A stretch of DNA of 22,595 nucleotides from a virus: IMG/VR virus record IMGVR_UViG_3300031280_000023, positions 1 to 22,595 of that record. One strand, given 5' to 3'. The notes beneath the pieces are model-generated. The model saw only the letters and a list, made by a program, of their open reading frames with translations, had not been told where the DNA came from and did not search any database. Below, in pieces: positions 663-6,952 of this stretch (positions are counted from its first letter, which is position 1; the number at the start of each line of letters is the position of its first letter). The position numbers were made by a program, and so were the translations under genes.

Positions 663-675
663 CTTTATATGTGAG
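663..675. repeat. Left copy of CTTTATATGTRAG flanking repeat
   Basis: CTTTATATGTGAG is a 12/13 match to CTTTATATGTAAG at 776-788. The two copies bracket the phased GTGAC array, suggesting they mark the edges of one functional site. Confidence 0.5.
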
Positions 676-676
676 C

Positions 677-765
677 GTGACAGGGCGTGACAGAAGGCGT
701 GACTCCCCGTGACTCAGTGTGACAAGATATGACACTTTACTCGTAAAACCGTGACACAGTGTGAC
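677..765. repeat. Helically phased GTGAC array (candidate packaging site or origin)
   Basis: GTGAC occurs at 677, 687, 699, 709, 719, 751 and 761, with ATGAC at 729. Successive spacings are 10, 12, 10, 10, 10, 22 and 10 bp. The 22-bp gap would hold one more position, where a degenerate CGTAA lies at about 742. Most copies extend to CGTGACA or TGTGACA. Such spacing puts the elements on nearly one face of the helix, as expected for a multimeric DNA-binding protein. The array lies 63 bp after the small-terminase-like gene, so a packaging (pac or cos-type) site is the first guess. Replication iterons or a cooperative operator are alternatives. There is no coding sequence here. Confidence 0.7.
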
Positions 766-775
766 ATGATAATTG

Positions 776-788
776 CTTTATATGTAAG
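776..788. repeat. Right copy of CTTTATATGTRAG flanking repeat
   Basis: CTTTATATGTAAG, the partner of 663-675, lies just beyond the last GTGAC element. An ATGACACA (793-800) follows it, echoing the array core. Confidence 0.5.
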
Positions 789-847
789 TATTATGACACA
801 AAGAAGAAGTTGTAACAGTAAAGATGGTGTTGTTATTGCTCAGTATG

Positions 848-877
848 TTGAGTATATGTTCACTGTTTTGTTATAAG
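848..877 (+). promoter_or_regulatory. Candidate sigma-70-like promoter for the structured region
   Basis: TTGAGT (848-853) and TATAAG (872-877) are separated by 18 bases; the first matches TTGACA at four positions and the second matches TATAAT at five. Transcription would start near 884, just before the hairpin-rich segment at 905-1237 and the small genes behind it. Chance matches of this quality are common, so this stays tentative. Confidence 0.3.
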
Positions 878-904
878 TGTTATTCCCTGTATAGAGAGCT
901 ACCA

Positions 905-1237
905 TTGACCAATCCAAAGTTCAACTTTGGAATTCACTAGAGATACCTTACTCCGACCAAAATGAGAAATGGAGTAAGTCGCATGTGAAATAAGTTTCTA
1001 GTGGTGGAAGATAGACGCTAATCAGGCAGAGGGGAACTTGCTCGGTGTAGCGATACGGTGCGGGCAAGACCGTCCAGATGAGTATGGTAAGACGGACGGG
1101 CGAGACATAAAACGAGGCGTTGCTCACTACACGCCTACCCCTGCCGTCCCTAGGTGGAAGTCCTGGGGCTAGAAACCCCATGGGGTGACCTCACGCTGAC
1201 CAAAACGAAGTTTTGGAATACTTCATGTGTGAAGTAA
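905..1237 (+). ncRNA. Candidate structured non-coding RNA of unknown class
   Basis: No convincing ORF covers this 333-nt stretch, but it is dense in complementary pairs in order. CCAAAGTT/AACTTTGG is at 914-921/923-930. CACTAG/CTAGTG (935-940/998-1003) encloses CTTACTCC/GGAGTAAG (947-954/971-978). CTTGCTCG/CGGGCAAG (1037-1044/1061-1068) encloses a short stem capped by a GCGA tetraloop (GNRA type, 1050-1053). GGACGG/CCGTCC (1094-1099/1144-1149) encloses AGGCGT/ACGCCT (1115-1120/1131-1136). TGGGG/CCCCA is at 1164-1168/1176-1180, CCAAAAC/GTTTTGG at 1200-1206/1210-1216 and TACTTC/GAAGTA at 1219-1224/1231-1236. Nested stems with a GNRA loop are typical of folded RNA. The closeness of a tRNA recalls large phage RNAs such as GOLLD and ROOL, but I recognise no family consensus. 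Strand is inferred from the neighbouring genes. Confidence 0.45.
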
Positions 1238-1247
1238 GGAGGTGAAG

Positions 1248-1334
1248 ATGAAAAAGATTATGAGTTTGCTAGACAGGGCTTATCAGGCTGCGATGAGGGC
1301 AATGCGCCCACCTGTGCCGAGGATGGCGATATGA
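1248..1334 (+). CDS. 28-aa small protein of unknown function
   Basis: A very short ORF (starts MKKIMSLLDRAYQAAMRAM, ends PRMAI) preceded by an excellent Shine-Dalgarno, AGGAGG at 1237-1242, five bases before the ATG. The peptide is basic and could form one amphipathic helix. It begins immediately after the structured segment, so that segment may be its 5' leader. Its stop overlaps the next start (ATGA at 1331-1334), which supports translation of both. No family is recognised. Confidence 0.5.
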   Translation: MKKIMSLLDRAYQAAMRAMRPPVPRMAI

Positions 1335-1453
1335 GGGGAGTACCAAAGCAAGATGGAAGTGGAGGAGGTACGAGAGCCAACCGTGGCAGTGGTGGGTGTC
1401 CTGTGCCACGAAGAACGGGACGGGGACGAATGAGAAGGAGAAGGGGTTGGTAA
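1331..1453 (+). CDS. 40-aa Gly/Arg-rich small protein
   Basis: The start overlaps the stop of the preceding tiny gene as ATGA, indicating translational coupling. The product begins MRGVPKQDGSGGGTRANRG, contains one Cys (GGCPVP) and ends in a run of arginines (RRRRGW). It is very basic and probably disordered, so a nucleic-acid-binding role is possible. It is reminiscent of small Gly-rich KQDGSG-type proteins found in phage and environmental genomes, but I cannot name a family with certainty. The next gene starts 6 bases after its stop. Confidence 0.5.
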   Translation: MRGVPKQDGSGGGTRANRGSGGCPVPRRTGRGRMRRRRGW

Positions 1454-1459
1454 AGGACA

Positions 1460-1654
1460 ATGAATACCCCATTAAAGGTTTACCTGAATGAGAGAGCGCA
1501 GAATTGCTGTGAGTGTGGAGAAGTAATTAAGGCAAACCAGCGGTACGTTTGGCGGACAAAGATGATACGGGTGCAGGGGGATAGAATCCGAGATACTGCG
1601 CCGTGTTGCCTGCCGTGCGCACGAAAAAGGGGGTGGGCTGTTGAAGGGGATTAA
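1460..1654 (+). CDS. 64-aa zinc-ribbon protein
   Basis: A small protein with two cysteine knuckles: CCECG at residues 16-20 (C16xxC19) and CCLPC at 49-53 (C50xxC53). They are separated by about 30 residues rich in Arg, Lys and Tyr, which fits a single-zinc ribbon. Such stand-alone ribbons are common in phages and often bind nucleic acid or protein; the role here is unknown. The start follows the upstream stop by six bases. The AAAGGA at 1452-1457 is very close to the ATG, so re-initiation by coupling seems likely. There is no HNH catalytic signature. Confidence 0.6.
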   Translation: MNTPLKVYLNERAQNCCECGEVIKANQRYVWRTKMIRVQGDRIRDTAPCCLPCARKRGWAVEGD

Positions 1655-1740
1655 GATTGACTGGATGGAGGTGTTAATGTGCTTCATATTTTGTGAAAGC
1701 CTCCACCTGATTAGTAATGCAATTGTTAGGCTACTAACGT

Positions 1741-2502: not shown

Positions 2503-2855
2503 CCGATGGGAAAAGGGTAAAGACCACAAGTGCTCATCTTGAAGGATTCAGGCGTGAGTTCATAAAGTATCAAAAATTGCTTGGGCTGACTGGATGGGAT
2601 GTCAGTTTTACAATTAAGGAGTTGCCGAATTCGCTGGCTCAGATTCATTATGTAGCTTCTGACTGCAATGCTGAGGTCTTTTTGAATAGTTCCCTTCCGA
2701 GCAGCACAAGTCTAAGGAAAACTGCAAAGCATGAGGCTATACACTTACTATTAGCAAGATATGACTATATAGCAAGTGCACGGTATATTGATGCAGAGGA
2801 ACTTACTTTTGCAAATGAGGAGATTGTCGTTAAACTAACGGACATAATACCGTAA
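2499..2855 (+). CDS. Zincin-like HExxH metallopeptidase-family protein
   Basis: A 118-aa protein with HEAIH at residues 78-82, inside a helix (TAKHEAIHLLLARYDY). This is the HExxH zinc-binding motif of zincin metallopeptidases. Acidic residues about 20-30 positions later (E100/E101 or E107/E108) are candidates for the third ligand. The N-terminal half has a beta-rich look (WDVSFTIKEL, then QIHYVASDCNAEVFLN), as in small SprT/WLM-like phage zincins. It overlaps the preceding gene by four bases and the terminase start by one, so it is translated with packaging genes. The substrate is unknown; roles in virion maturation or against host factors are both possible. It could also be an inactive binding protein. 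Confidence 0.6.
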   Translation: MTDGKRVKTTSAHLEGFRREFIKYQKLLGLTGWDVSFTIKELPNSLAQIHYVASDCNAEVFLNSSLPSSTSLRKTAKHEAIHLLLARYDYIASARYIDAEELTFANEEIVVKLTDIIP

Positions 2856-4225
2856 TGGGATTAGAGGAAGCAACGCAGTATATCTTCAGGGCTATAGGTT
2901 ATGAACCCACAAATGCTCAGTGGGAAGTGCATCGTGACCCGACCAGACACAAACTTGTAACTGGAGGAGAGCGTGCTGGAAAGAGCCGAGTCAATGCTAT
3001 GGAGATACTAAAACACTGGTATGTTGATAAGTGCATACCAAAGATAGAGAATGGACTCTATTGGCTAATTGGTGCTGATTACGAAGGGTGTCGTGGAGAC
3101 TGGGAGCATCTGGTAGAGGCTTTTGCAAGGTTGGGGCAGATTAAGCAACTGACTAAATCAATAGACCCAGCCCTGATGGTTCTTACTGATGGCACACAAT
3201 TCGTTACAAAGTCGGCAAAGTATCCTGAGAAGATTGCTACCGTTGCTCCTGATGGCATAGGTGGATGTGAGGCTGCCCAGTTGGATTACGAGATTTTCTT
3301 GCGTTCTCGCTCAAGGGTTGCAGAGAAGCGAGGCTTCCTGAGCTTTACGGGAACGTTAGAGGAGGAGGAATACACGAGTTGGTATTCTGAATTGTATCAA
3401 GTTGGGCAGTCTCATAATAATCTTGAGCTTAAATCGTTCTCTATTCCCTCGTGGTCTAATAAATACGTATTCCCAGAGGGTGAGAATGACCCCGAGATAT
3501 TAAAACTGAAAGCTGGCATGACCTATGAGAGGTTCATGGAGAGATTTGCTGGAGTACCTGCTCCTAAGACTGGCAGGGTAATCACCGAGTTTGCCAATGT
3601 TATTCATGTCAAGGAATGCCCCTTCAATAAGGACTTACCTGTAGAGATTGGTATAGACGTAGGTTTCAAGGGAGCTTATGCTGTCGAAGCCGTACAAGAG
3701 GTAAATGGACAGTTTCGGGGTATAGATGAGGTTTACCTAACGGGCTATGTTACAGAGGATGTTATCACTATATGCCAGAAGAAGCCGTGGTGGGATAATG
3801 TTATAGGTGGTGCTATTGACATAGCTGGCACACAACACCAAGGCATGACTTCCCCTGTAGAGGTTTGGGGAAGTAAGGGTAAAGTAGCCCTAGTCTACAA
3901 GAAGGTGAATGTAGAAGACGGGATAGACTTGTTTCGCACTCAGCTAAAACAGCATCCTGTTACCTTACAGGCAGGATTTGTGTTTGACCCTAAATGCAGA
4001 GGGATTATCTCAGAGATGGGTGGAGGACGCTCACCACTATCAGAAGGTGGGGGTATATGGATGAGAGATAAGAATACAGGTGTGGCTCTCCGCAAGAATG
4101 ACCACGGATGCAAGGCGTGTATATACCTTTTGGCAAACAAGTTTTTATATACAGTAAAGGGAGACAGATTACCCCACCTAAGATTCACAGGAGAGCCTGC
4201 ACGACAAACCTTTAGAGGGAGATAA
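2855..4225 (+). CDS. terL: Terminase large subunit
   Basis: A 456-aa packaging motor with ATPase and nuclease halves. The Walker A motif GGERAGKS is at residues 37-44. A predicted ATPase motif III (SFTGT) is at 163-167. The Walker B region is unusual: no plain hydrophobic-DE string is seen, and E139 in GIGGCEAAQLDYEIF is the best candidate for the catalytic glutamate. The RNase H-like nuclease shows IGIDVG (D268), GGAIDIAG (D322) and a late acidic residue in KNDHGCK (D416), consistent with the metal-binding triad. The enzyme docks on the portal, pumps DNA into the prohead and cuts the concatemer. The start overlaps the zincin stop (TAATG), and the portal begins three bases after its own stop. 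Confidence 0.88.
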   Translation: MGLEEATQYIFRAIGYEPTNAQWEVHRDPTRHKLVTGGERAGKSRVNAMEILKHWYVDKCIPKIENGLYWLIGADYEGCRGDWEHLVEAFARLGQIKQLTKSIDPALMVLTDGTQFVTKSAKYPEKIATVAPDGIGGCEAAQLDYEIFLRSRSRVAEKRGFLSFTGTLEEEEYTSWYSELYQVGQSHNNLELKSFSIPSWSNKYVFPEGENDPEILKLKAGMTYERFMERFAGVPAPKTGRVITEFANVIHVKECPFNKDLPVEIGIDVGFKGAYAVEAVQEVNGQFRGIDEVYLTGYVTEDVITICQKKPWWDNVIGGAIDIAGTQHQGMTSPVEVWGSKGKVALVYKKVNVEDGIDLFRTQLKQHPVTLQAGFVFDPKCRGIISEMGGGRSPLSEGGGIWMRDKNTGVALRKNDHGCKACIYLLANKFLYTVKGDRLPHLRFTGEPARQTFRGR

Positions 4226-4228
4226 GTT

Positions 4229-6010
4229 ATGAAACAACCACAAGCTCCAACAGTAGATGAAATAAAGAAGAAACTCTCAGCTTGGGAGACCTATTACCAG
4301 AGACATCACCAGAATCAAAAAGACATAGATGAGTTCTATGAACTGACGTTTAGTGCCCAAGTGCCTAAGCGGTATCCGACACGCAAGCCTTCAACGGCCA
4401 GGGATTGGATTGACGCTGGCGTAAGGCACTACACACTTGATAATCCCAAGATGATAGTGTATGCCCGTAGAAATTCTGATGAAGCCCGCAGGCAAGCTGC
4501 GGCAATAGAAAACTGGGGAAACTTCTTCCTGAAATTAAGCCGCAGGCAAATCAAAGATGTTGCAAAGAAAGTCCTGCTCCGTGGAGAGGGCATAATCAAA
4601 CTCAATATGGACGACATTTACTTTGGGGATTATAACGGCAAGCCTATTGACTCCCTAGATGTTAAGGAACTAATGGAATACAGGGAGAAGCGGTTATACC
4701 ACTTCCCTCTTTATATGACTATTCCAGACGCTATCAATGTTTTCTGTTCTACTGCCCACGAGGGGCTTATGCCACTAGAAGTAATAGAGTGCTTTGAGGT
4801 TACTGTCTCTGAGGCTGAAGCTATGTGCCAGAAGAACGGATGGGTGTTCGACTCTAAGAACAGGAGACCAGATGAAAAGGTTACGTGGATAAGTTATTAC
4901 TCTTGCGACTGGCGATGCTTTATCCTTGATGATGTTCCCGTGTTAAAGGGACAGGTGCAACGTAATATTTTCGGTTTTGTCCCTTATGTGCATTTCAGTG
5001 CTATGGCTGGACAGACTGGATATGATGGCAAACCAGAGTATGAATACAGACCCTTAATACATGGGAAGCAGGATATGTTCATTATGGAGTCAAGGATGCT
5101 CTCGTTTATTGACGCTATCAATGCCCGTCATGCCTTCCCGAGGCATGTGTTTAAGGGCAATCCAGAAGTTATCAAGCAACATTATCCTCATGGTATTCCT
5201 ACCGACCCAGAGGAAGTCCTGATTGAGATACCAGACCAGATGGAGATTAGGATTCTTGATGGCGAGAAGCCGCCAGAAGGATTATTCGCAGAATTTGGGA
5301 TAATGGAACAACTGGCTGCTCCGCCCGCTGCTCTTAGTGGGGTGAGACCCATAGGAGTATATGGCAGTGCACATCAGGAAAGCCTGATGGCTTCTGCCTT
5401 ATCGCAGTATAAGGATGCCTTTATGAGTTTACAGGAGGCATTGGCTACTGTACTTGGTATGGGCTTGAGGATTATGGAGCAGACATACCAGCATGACGTG
5501 ATGATTAAGAATCTTTCCTCTGATGCTGCTAAGGTGTACCAAATTCTCAAAGTTAGCGACATTAAGGGTTATTATGACTGTGAAGTTAAGCTGCTTGCCG
5601 AGCCTCCAGAGGCTACCGATACACGCAAGGCTCTCGGAAAGGCTTTCTGGCAGGGTGGTGCAATTAGCAAGGATAAAATGCTGAGAGAATACTTCGATAT
5701 GTCACAGCAAGAAATACAGGATGAAACAGCCCAACAGCTTGCCGAGAAGGTAATGGAAGACCCGCTAGTTGGTGGAGCTTTGGGGCGAGATGCCCTGGAG
5801 ATGTTTGGCATGGAGAAGGCTGCTCAGGCTGTCAAGGCAATAGATGCCCAGACAGCAGCATTAGGCAAGCAACCCTATCTTGGGGTAGGTGCTACTCCTC
5901 CGAGTCAAGTAGGTGAAGGCATGGGTGTAGCTACTGATGCCGTACAGAAAATGAACAGAAGTGCTGGAGTAGGCACTAATCCAAGCCCAAGGGTACAAAT
6001 GGGGGGATAA
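4229..6010 (+). CDS. Portal protein
   Basis: A 593-aa protein directly after the large terminase, the usual place and size for a portal. Portals form the twelve-subunit ring at one vertex through which DNA enters and leaves. The N-terminal part has an aromatic helical segment (WETYYQRHHQNQKDIDEFY) and a region near residue 65 (RHYTLDNPKMIVYARR). A helical block at 85-126 ends in RGEGIIKLN, leading into the beta-rich wing. At 377-419 GVYGSAHQESLMASALSQY begins the long helical region expected of the crown-proximal stem. The C-terminal 45 residues are low-complexity Gly/Ala/Pro. Family assignment rests on context and these patterns. The stop overlaps the next start (TAATG). Confidence 0.78.
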   Translation: MKQPQAPTVDEIKKKLSAWETYYQRHHQNQKDIDEFYELTFSAQVPKRYPTRKPSTARDWIDAGVRHYTLDNPKMIVYARRNSDEARRQAAAIENWGNFFLKLSRRQIKDVAKKVLLRGEGIIKLNMDDIYFGDYNGKPIDSLDVKELMEYREKRLYHFPLYMTIPDAINVFCSTAHEGLMPLEVIECFEVTVSEAEAMCQKNGWVFDSKNRRPDEKVTWISYYSCDWRCFILDDVPVLKGQVQRNIFGFVPYVHFSAMAGQTGYDGKPEYEYRPLIHGKQDMFIMESRMLSFIDAINARHAFPRHVFKGNPEVIKQHYPHGIPTDPEEVLIEIPDQMEIRILDGEKPPEGLFAEFGIMEQLAAPPAALSGVRPIGVYGSAHQESLMASALSQYKDAFMSLQEALATVLGMGLRIMEQTYQHDVMIKNLSSDAAKVYQILKVSDIKGYYDCEVKLLAEPPEATDTRKALGKAFWQGGAISKDKMLREYFDMSQQEIQDETAQQLAEKVMEDPLVGGALGRDALEMFGMEKAAQAVKAIDAQTAALGKQPYLGVGATPPSQVGEGMGVATDAVQKMNRSAGVGTNPSPRVQMGG

Positions 6011-6189: not shown

Positions 6190-6952
6190 AGAAGAAACTA
6201 TACAAACCGCAGGAACGGTATTAGAAAGGTATGGGGGAATGGGAACTTTTTATAATCCCGACCACCAAGCAATAGCTGATGCAGTAAGGTCTGGCGAATT
6301 ACCCCGTGCTGATGTAAAGACGCTTACTAGCTTTCAGTTATCCTCTCTAGGACAAAAGGAATATGCAGCGTTATACCCCGAAGTCTTCAGTGGTGGTGGG
6401 CTTCCGCAGGCTCAGGTTATGTCACCTGAAGCTATGGAAATAGCAGCCCTTAGAGAATTACGTAATAGCTTTATCGGGCTTGGCATGGATATTTACAGAA
6501 CCATGATAGATAATAGGATTGCCTCGCTAGTAAGGCAAAAGAGAATGGGAGGTTGGGAAATAGCGAGGGAACAAGAATTTCCGCTTCCCGATTGGATGAG
6601 ACCACTTTTGGGGCTTCCCCCAGTACAAGCAGCGGAAGAAGATATGGGACGTGGGGGATTCAGGAAGGAACAAAAGCAGCCTACAATTTCTGCTGAAGAA
6701 GCAAGGGAGCTTAAACTTGCTCCGCCAGGGGCACAAACGGAACTAGATGTTGACCAGCAAAAATATCTGTCCTCTTTCCTTGCATGGCAAAAGGCTGGTA
6801 CGCCATCAGGTTGGGAACGGTCAGGGATGGAGGCACTTCAACGCATGTCTCAGGGTCAAGGCGACTGGTGGACAGAGTTCCAGCGTAAATCACAAAGTAT
6901 GTTCCCATCATCTCAGAGACTTGGAGTGCAACGGAGAGTTGCCTCCCAATAG
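6182..6952 (+). CDS. Unassigned 256-aa protein between portal and giant protein
   Basis: I do not recognise this family. GGAG at 6171-6174, seven bases upstream, supports the ATG, which overlaps the preceding small gene. The N-terminus contains short helical segments (HQAIADAVRSGELP, then LTSFQLSSLGQKEYAALYP). The middle has LRELRNSFIGLGMDIYRTM, and the C-terminus is basic and Gln-rich (FQRKSQSMFPSSQRLG). There is no signal peptide or membrane segment. Lying between the portal and a very large putative virion protein, it may be a head-assembly or internal protein. Its predicted product is soluble and largely helical. Confidence 0.65.
   Translation: MAEEETIQTAGTVLERYGGMGTFYNPDHQAIADAVRSGELPRADVKTLTSFQLSSLGQKEYAALYPEVFSGGGLPQAQVMSPEAMEIAALRELRNSFIGLGMDIYRTMIDNRIASLVRQKRMGGWEIAREQEFPLPDWMRPLLGLPPVQAAEEDMGRGGFRKEQKQPTISAEEARELKLAPPGAQTELDVDQQKYLSSFLAWQKAGTPSGWERSGMEALQRMSQGQGDWWTEFQRKSQSMFPSSQRLGVQRRVASQ

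Follow-up and report, generated by a model that had tools for sequence, protein, structure and literature searches.

A noncoding phage RNA with a tRNA-like outer frame, a probable member of a large phage-borne family

In bacterial Y RNAs of the YrlA type, which are bound by Rsr/Ro, a tRNA-like module has its anticodon arm replaced by another domain, the two RNA ends pair into the Ro-binding stem, and a cap closes the acceptor-like stem. ROOL and GOLLD are large structured phage RNAs that are found near tRNA genes. In phage T4, RNAs C and D (rnaC and rnaD) are noncoding RNAs of 119-139 nt that are encoded in the tRNA array and have no known function (PMC9697503), and hyper-transcribed noncoding regions of CKA15 have tentatively been called Y RNAs (PMC12282133).

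We analysed a 22.6 kb virus record from IMG/VR, referred to here as the window (the whole stretch of DNA, 22,595 nucleotides), for which a preliminary description had proposed a new class of structured phage RNA at positions 905-1237. Covariation of both an outer frame and an inner core, in alignments that include the window, supports this proposal; the description had overlooked the mimicry of tRNA, the narrower limits of the RNA, and the fact that it is no singleton but common. Our overall reading, in which we have somewhat more confidence than doubt, places window 994-1176 in a large family of noncoding RNAs that mimic tRNA and are carried by phages.

The window RNA resembles ROOL and GOLLD as a structured phage RNA near a tRNA gene, but is much shorter, has a tRNA-like frame, and matches nothing in Rfam. 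Rfam covariance models (E up to 10) gave no match to GOLLD, ROOL, HEARO, OLE, or group I and II introns, which excludes GOLLD, ROOL, and HEARO. Mobile-intron and group I/II ideas were rejected on the same absence of an Rfam match and on the closed tRNA-like stack in which the segment ends. Rfam 15, applied to the window at gathering scores and with E up to 10, returned only tRNA above chance; with E up to 10 on the window, L028, the P100 array, and EFDG1, only tRNA and a near-threshold ROOL match in P100 were relevant. The latter is a separate match within the P100 (L223) tRNA array (26573-27124; 86 bits, below the cut-off of 99.1) and is possibly one of the hyper-transcribed regions of PMC12282133, while the P100 frame element, which gene order places more than 3 kb from the locus corresponding to the CKA15 regions, is probably not one of them. 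The family is a common one that lacks an Rfam entry: no entry in Rfam 15 matches it, and no description was found in the open-access literature. Since subscription papers and preprints were outside the search, novelty is limited to these two sources.

The locus and the parts of the RNA

The window encodes TerS (123-614), TerL (2855-4225), a major head protein, and short ORFs, and the stretch 905-1237 lies between TerS and a short ORF that starts at ATG 1248. The stretch was described as noncoding, and no credible ORF was found within it; the strong Shine-Dalgarno reported downstream is AGGAGG at 1237-1242, ahead of that ATG. A tRNA neighbourhood had also been claimed, and the tRNA is real (1741-1815; 36 bits with Rfam), but it is degenerate, is not called by ARAGORN, and lies about 500 nt downstream. 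Searching INPHARED by blastn with window 700-1700 gave no match, because the conserved blocks are too short for a query of this kind.

The limits of the RNA follow from relatives identified by TerL. Both L003 and L004 keep hairpin units around the site (GACCAA...TTTGG...; in L003 also GACCAAAACGAAGTTTTGA...), but in L003 the segment between about 1000 and 1193 is missing, with the flanking hairpin units kept, and L004 has a different structured insert at the same site. The RNA proper is therefore narrower than 905-1237; the proposed structured stretch stands, but not its limits, the conserved RNA being 994-1176. The hairpins at 905-993 and 1177-1242 are a separate leader that is kept by a relative without the RNA. 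The 361-nt stretch 890-1250 folds at -113.5 kcal/mol (z = -2.78; 1/100 shuffles equally good), but energy proves little, since the core alone (995-1195) is unexceptional (z = -0.66); as far as sequence data can establish it, the structure is proven by comparison, with folding energy by itself modest evidence only.

Within 994-1176, the outermost helix is an acceptor-like stem, with GTTTCTAG (994-1001) as its 5' strand and CTAGAAAC (1169-1176) as its 3' strand; the strands are complementary at 7/7 (8/8) positions, the stem covaries in the family, and no CCA is encoded directly after it. A UG linker (1002-1003), equivalent to tRNA U8-G9 and invariant in an alignment of 46 sequences, leads into a tRNA-Leu-like D arm, GTG-GAAGATAGA-CGC (1004-1018), for which other members have GCG/CGC or GTG/CAC. 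The inner core is closed by stem B, whose 5' strand GGCAG.GGG (1025-1033) covaries with its partner in 13 homologues and whose 3' strand CCCCTGCC (1138-1145) ends 2 nt before the T arm, in keeping with a position rule described below. It contains three hairpins: H1, CTTGCTCG/CGGGCAAG (1037-1068), with an inner GUA-GCGA-UAC stem (1047-1056) that is invariant in 13 homologues and confirms the GNRA-capped stem noted earlier; H2, ACCGTC/GACGG (1069-1096), with the conserved loop GATGAGTATGGT and compensatory changes at 6/6 pairs; and the signature hairpin H3, AAAACGAGGCGT...ACGCCTA (1109-1137), a motif present in at least 120 IMG/VR stretches. H3 is invariant in alignment A3, but was fixed by the search that gathered the sequences. 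After stem B come GU (1146-1147), the U being the equivalent of tRNA position 48, and a T arm (1148-1168) with a 7-bp stem CCCTAGG/CCTGGGG and T-loop TGGAAGT, supported by the structural detector and the alignment.

The window thus has each feature that defines the frame: a 7-bp acceptor adjoining a T stem of 6-7 bp with a TNNRANN loop, UG followed by a GYG...CGC D arm, a U directly 5' of the T stem, and an insert whose closing helix (1025-1033/1138-1145) ends 2 nt before that stem. The comparisons below show that the outer frame (acceptor, D arm, and T arm) adopts a fold like that of the acceptor/elbow half of a tRNA, and that it encloses an inner core of about 130 nt in place of the anticodon and variable arms.

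Two features of the surroundings were observed in addition. Two tiny ORFs are conserved in the window, L003, and L004, one at window 1248-1334 (MKKIMSLLDRAYQAAMRAMRPPVPRMAI, with a good Shine-Dalgarno) and one from 1332 onward that encodes an Arg/Gly-rich peptide of about 40 aa; in L003 and L004 an ORF of about 460 nt is inserted between them. Short iterated repeats lie immediately after TerS or inside its end (CGTGACA at window 665-770; also in L003 and L004; GGCGTTACA at L006 1320-1400; CACGATGTTAACAAG at the L008 locus, 5030-5230) and are candidate terminase-binding (pac/cosB) iterons.

Covariation of the frame and of the inner core

The relative L006 has an element at the same place, after its TerS, whose 5' end has CUGGUGGCGGAA-n-AGACGCUA in common with the window and whose 3' end has CAAGGUGGAAGUCCUUGAGCCAGCAC; these shared ends are the tRNA-Leu-like D arm, T arm, and acceptor, with about 130 nt replacing the anticodon and variable arms. 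A structural detector recovered the window element (994/995-1175/1176) and some 140 others. Among 46 aligned members, 98.2% of frame cells are paired, compared to 74.9% after shuffling and 30-46% with slid partners, and double changes number 181 compared to 53 after shuffling. Because the detector selects for pairing, this count was repeated on 110 unfiltered pattern matches, for which the pattern fixed no more than GGUGGCGGAA..ACGC and GGUGCAAAUCC; here each of the five outer acceptor pairs is present in 85-100% of sequences, compared to 42-65% expected, with all five present in 90/110, and a U stands 5' of the T stem in 110/110. The covariation among homologues named in the preliminary description as the way to check its claim is therefore strong, both for the frame (46 and 110 sequences) and for the core (13 sequences); coding conservation, which it named as a refutation, was not found, because relatives lack the segment altogether.

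The tRNA core is held by contacts between U8 and A14 and between A15 and U48. U8, A14, and A15 are invariant in the aligned frame members and, together with the U before the T stem, are consistent with these contacts. D loops with GG go together with T-loop UGCAAAU, and those without GG mostly with UGGAAGU or UGAAAGU; exceptions are L034 and L025, the switch recurs in P100, and the correspondence is consistent with the 19-56 elbow contact. Likeness to class II tRNA-Leu thus extends to the D arm (GGUGGCGGAA-n-AGACGC) and to U8, A14, A15, and U48, but the family has no anticodon arm, its T stem is 6-7 bp, its T-loop is UGCAAAU or UGGAAGU, and its acceptor and T stems stack to 13-14 bp, not 12. 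A covariance model of the frame (R1) gives a true tRNA-Leu about 35 bits, similar to the window (35.6 bits, a value that is not independent as the trimmed window sequence was in the training set), and the separation from tRNA-Leu therefore rests on length, T-loop, and core rather than on R1 score. ARAGORN called neither a tRNA nor a tmRNA at the window element, and the RNA was rejected as a tRNA on the absence of an anticodon arm and of recognition by tRNA finders.

With regard to the inner core, stem B obeys the position rule in 96 members: placed exactly 2 nt before the T stem, it has a mean energy of -9.1 kcal/mol compared to about -4.1 at offsets of 6-14, with 59% of energies below -8 compared to about 11% at those offsets. 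In several families a second stem crosses stem B to form a pseudoknot. Within one close family, stem B and a hairpin show compensatory changes that support it, but significance of the crossing stem is only weak when all members are taken together (10/80 at p<=0.05).

The core of the window itself consists of UAAUCAG, GGUGUAGCGAUACGGUGCGGG, GAUGAGUAUGGU, and AAAACGAGGCGU..ACGCCUA. Listeria phage B025 shares AAAACGAGGCGU...ACGCCUA with the window, and a scan of IMG/VR for this signature gave at least 120 stretches. L308 and L352 carry the full core inside the common Bacillota frame, other full-core members sit in frames of different sequence, and short core matches occur in phages of E. coli, Klebsiella, Acinetobacter, and Pseudomonas. 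In 13 aligned core sequences, the window included, 93.7% of cells are paired compared to 78.7% after shuffling, with 41 double-change cells compared to 14 (0/500), and stem B and H2 have a compensatory change at every pair; RNAalifold independently returned the same core helices plus the GNRA-capped stem. The window therefore passes as a member of the AAAACGAGGCGU core family, and its core is shown to be a conserved four-helix module common to Bacillota phages, with looser matches extending to phages of Proteobacteria. Among the matches listed, the strict frame detector recognised only 11 of 104 distinct signature sites; other frames thus exist and need models of their own.

Among these same listed matches, a canonical tRNA T arm (GGTTCRANNCC) was observed nested in the core region at 29/104 sites (e.g., L238, L255, L262, L267, and L042 3754-3942), as if a whole tRNA-like domain had been inserted. 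In the E. coli phage CUS-3 (CP000711), the signature region at 25524-25596 falls on a feature annotated 'bsq3; boundary sequence'.

Distribution among phages and exchange of frames and cores

Many viral contigs, and some bacterial ones, proved to contain the frame when scanned by pattern. A strict frame pattern had at least 120 matches in IMG/VR and none in 398 Bacillota and 398 Pseudomonadota genomes, from which we infer that the family is phage-borne. Relatives are kept across hundreds of phages, laboratory model phages among them; carriers include Lactobacillus phages Lenus, Gut-P1, and phiJL-1, Leuconostoc Ln-9, Bacillus SPP1, Grass, Goe27, and phi3Ts, Listeria LP-101, B025, B054, LP-037, PSA, and P100, several Enterococcus phages, Brochothrix BtpYZU01, and SPO1-like phages. 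In no phage region inspected was the element annotated as an RNA. L015, L018, L019, L021, and L022 were rejected as chance pattern matches, and a proposed identity of Listeria RliG as the copy in A118 was unsupported, as A118 36.0-40.8 kb has no R1 match.

By inspection, SPP1 and Grass have a common core but not a common acceptor, another core is found in both phi3Ts and Goe27, the acceptor of Grass recurs in Goe27, and EFDG1/VEsP-1 and L025 have the same core in different frames, showing that frames and cores occur in different combinations and recombine independently. Acceptors follow host genus: ATACTCG occurs in 7/8 Listeria phages of unrelated groups, including P100, which is lytic and has different D and T loops, GTCACTG in 6/6 Enterococcus phages, and GTGCTTG in 3/3 L. 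plantarum phages. Identical acceptors were found in 31/43 within-genus pairs compared to 3/210 between genera, a count that leaves out two Enterococcus phages and is uncorrected for shared phage ancestry. This link to genus could reflect recombination among the phages of one host or a host factor that reads the acceptor. A wider model, for which our support falls short of an even balance, is that in phages of many hosts a tRNA-like frame adapted to the host genus serves as carrier for pseudoknotted effector RNAs, which are exchangeable, reach a target conserved among cells, and are swapped between frames by recombination.

Several further elements were observed alongside the family. A frame of 51 nt that consists of acceptor, D arm, and T arm only, with hardly any insert, is found at 329-379 in both L229 and L230 (Enterococcus phages phiFL2B and IME197), in phiFL2B upstream of the terminase, and is perhaps a minimal frame or an emptied one. 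Directly downstream of the frame RNA, a second, shorter tRNA-like element (T arm and acceptor) occurs in SPP1 (L083 about 2618-2662) and at L028 4600-4662, the latter mascRNA-like in Rfam at 16.5 bits, below cut-off. Structured inserts at L004 968-1105 and 2330-2470 and at L003 3290-3418 share CUGGUGUCYGU...GGGAAG...GAGCCAG; they are apparently divergent tRNA-like relatives with larger T-loops, and are unmatched by R1.

Proposed role and relation to known RNAs

We propose that host RNase P would release the RNA from phage transcripts at the acceptor 5' end, with RNase Z or exonucleases acting at the 3' end. The product would be a stable RNA that is neither aminoacylated nor used in decoding, since it has no anticodon and has 13-14 bp of acceptor plus T stem instead of 12. 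This part of the proposal is inferred from tRNA biology, with no transcript or processing data, and we regard it as likely. The frame may provide processing, stability, and recognition by tRNA-handling factors, while the core may serve as effector by binding a host or phage factor and keeping it occupied. That the RNA acts in trans in this way, as scaffold plus effector, is an inference with no identified target, and we put it forward only tentatively.

Action in trans draws support from members inside tRNA arrays (Lenus, Grass, Gut-P1, 21C1, and P100), from a stand-alone copy in L218 with a near-consensus promoter and an intrinsic terminator, from an extended -10 in L006 that puts the start near acceptor nt 1, and from the Pd_22F member, which is followed by opposite-strand genes. 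Most members, however, lie between same-strand genes in gaps of about 150 nt and several are placed before the terminase, between it and a late regulator, so that a role in cis is possible: the tRNA-like fold would be processing punctuation or a regulatory leader of the downstream operon, with cuts by RNase P and RNase Z shaping the late mRNAs. We consider this unlikely, as it fits poorly with the tRNA-array members, the L218 unit, and the neighbours of Pd_22F, and a pure cleavage signal needs no conserved 130-nt core. Still more doubtful is a decoy or inhibitor of tRNA-directed host defence, soaking up tRNA-attacking nucleases or tRNA-modifying enzymes. Such a decoy would suit an RNA that accurately imitates the acceptor, D, and T arms yet cannot decode, that occurs in tRNA arrays, and that has a hypervariable inner part and acceptors tied to host genus, but known anticodon nucleases require an anticodon loop, which is absent here, and there are no data on association with defence.

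Two readings derive the RNA from known genes. The Leu-like D arm and the degenerate tRNAs nearby in the window and its relatives could suggest decayed class II, Leu-like tRNA genes with random insertions; this would require a pattern of neutral drift and is already refuted by strong purifying covariation, which extends to the acceptor, the T stem, stem B, and the core; the persistence of the 13-14 bp stack and the altered T-loop in hundreds of phages also speaks against it, so that we give it almost no credence. A tmRNA relative without its mRNA part is hardly more credible. As in tmRNA (SsrA), a tRNA-like domain encloses other domains, with a pseudoknot in many members, and in 21C1 the element adjoins a tmRNA; but 21C1 retains that true tmRNA beside the element, and the window RNA has no tag reading frame, no match to the Rfam tmRNA model or tmRNA call by ARAGORN, and a different acceptor/T geometry, with a T stem of 6-7 bp. 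As a separate observation, phage L023, which carries a frame-family RNA at 3396-3544, also has an 84-nt tmRNA-like gene at 6660-6743 (Rfam tmRNA, 53 bits; encoded CCA; no room for a tag) that reads as the tRNA-like domain of tmRNA alone.

The genus-specific acceptors and the shuffling of frames and cores suggest a host factor that reads tRNA-like RNAs in infection, possibly in defence and counter-defence. If the family is as common as it appears, and absent from Rfam although present in the model phages SPP1, P100, PSA, and phi3T, a major class of phage noncoding RNA has been missing.

Among known RNAs, Y RNAs come conceptually closest as tRNA mimics, but YrlA has a topology opposite to that of the frame family; no Y RNA family match was found by Rfam in the window, L028, or the P100 array, and no TROVE/Rsr gene in the 30 records searched, a result limited by the window record being a fragment. 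T4 RNAs C and D are the nearest precedent by location. RNA C resembles the frame family in ending in a T arm and an imperfect acceptor, but has a canonical UUCGAAU T-loop and no TG-GCG...CGC D arm, and RNA D differs in ending in CCA. R1 with filters off gave neither a full-length match nor anything above noise against rnaC and rnaD, and the inspected rnaC/rnaD sequence had no sign of the AAAACGAGGCGU core. As it provides many related RNAs in easy genetic systems, the family may nonetheless give comparative material on the decades-old question of what T4 RNAs C and D do.
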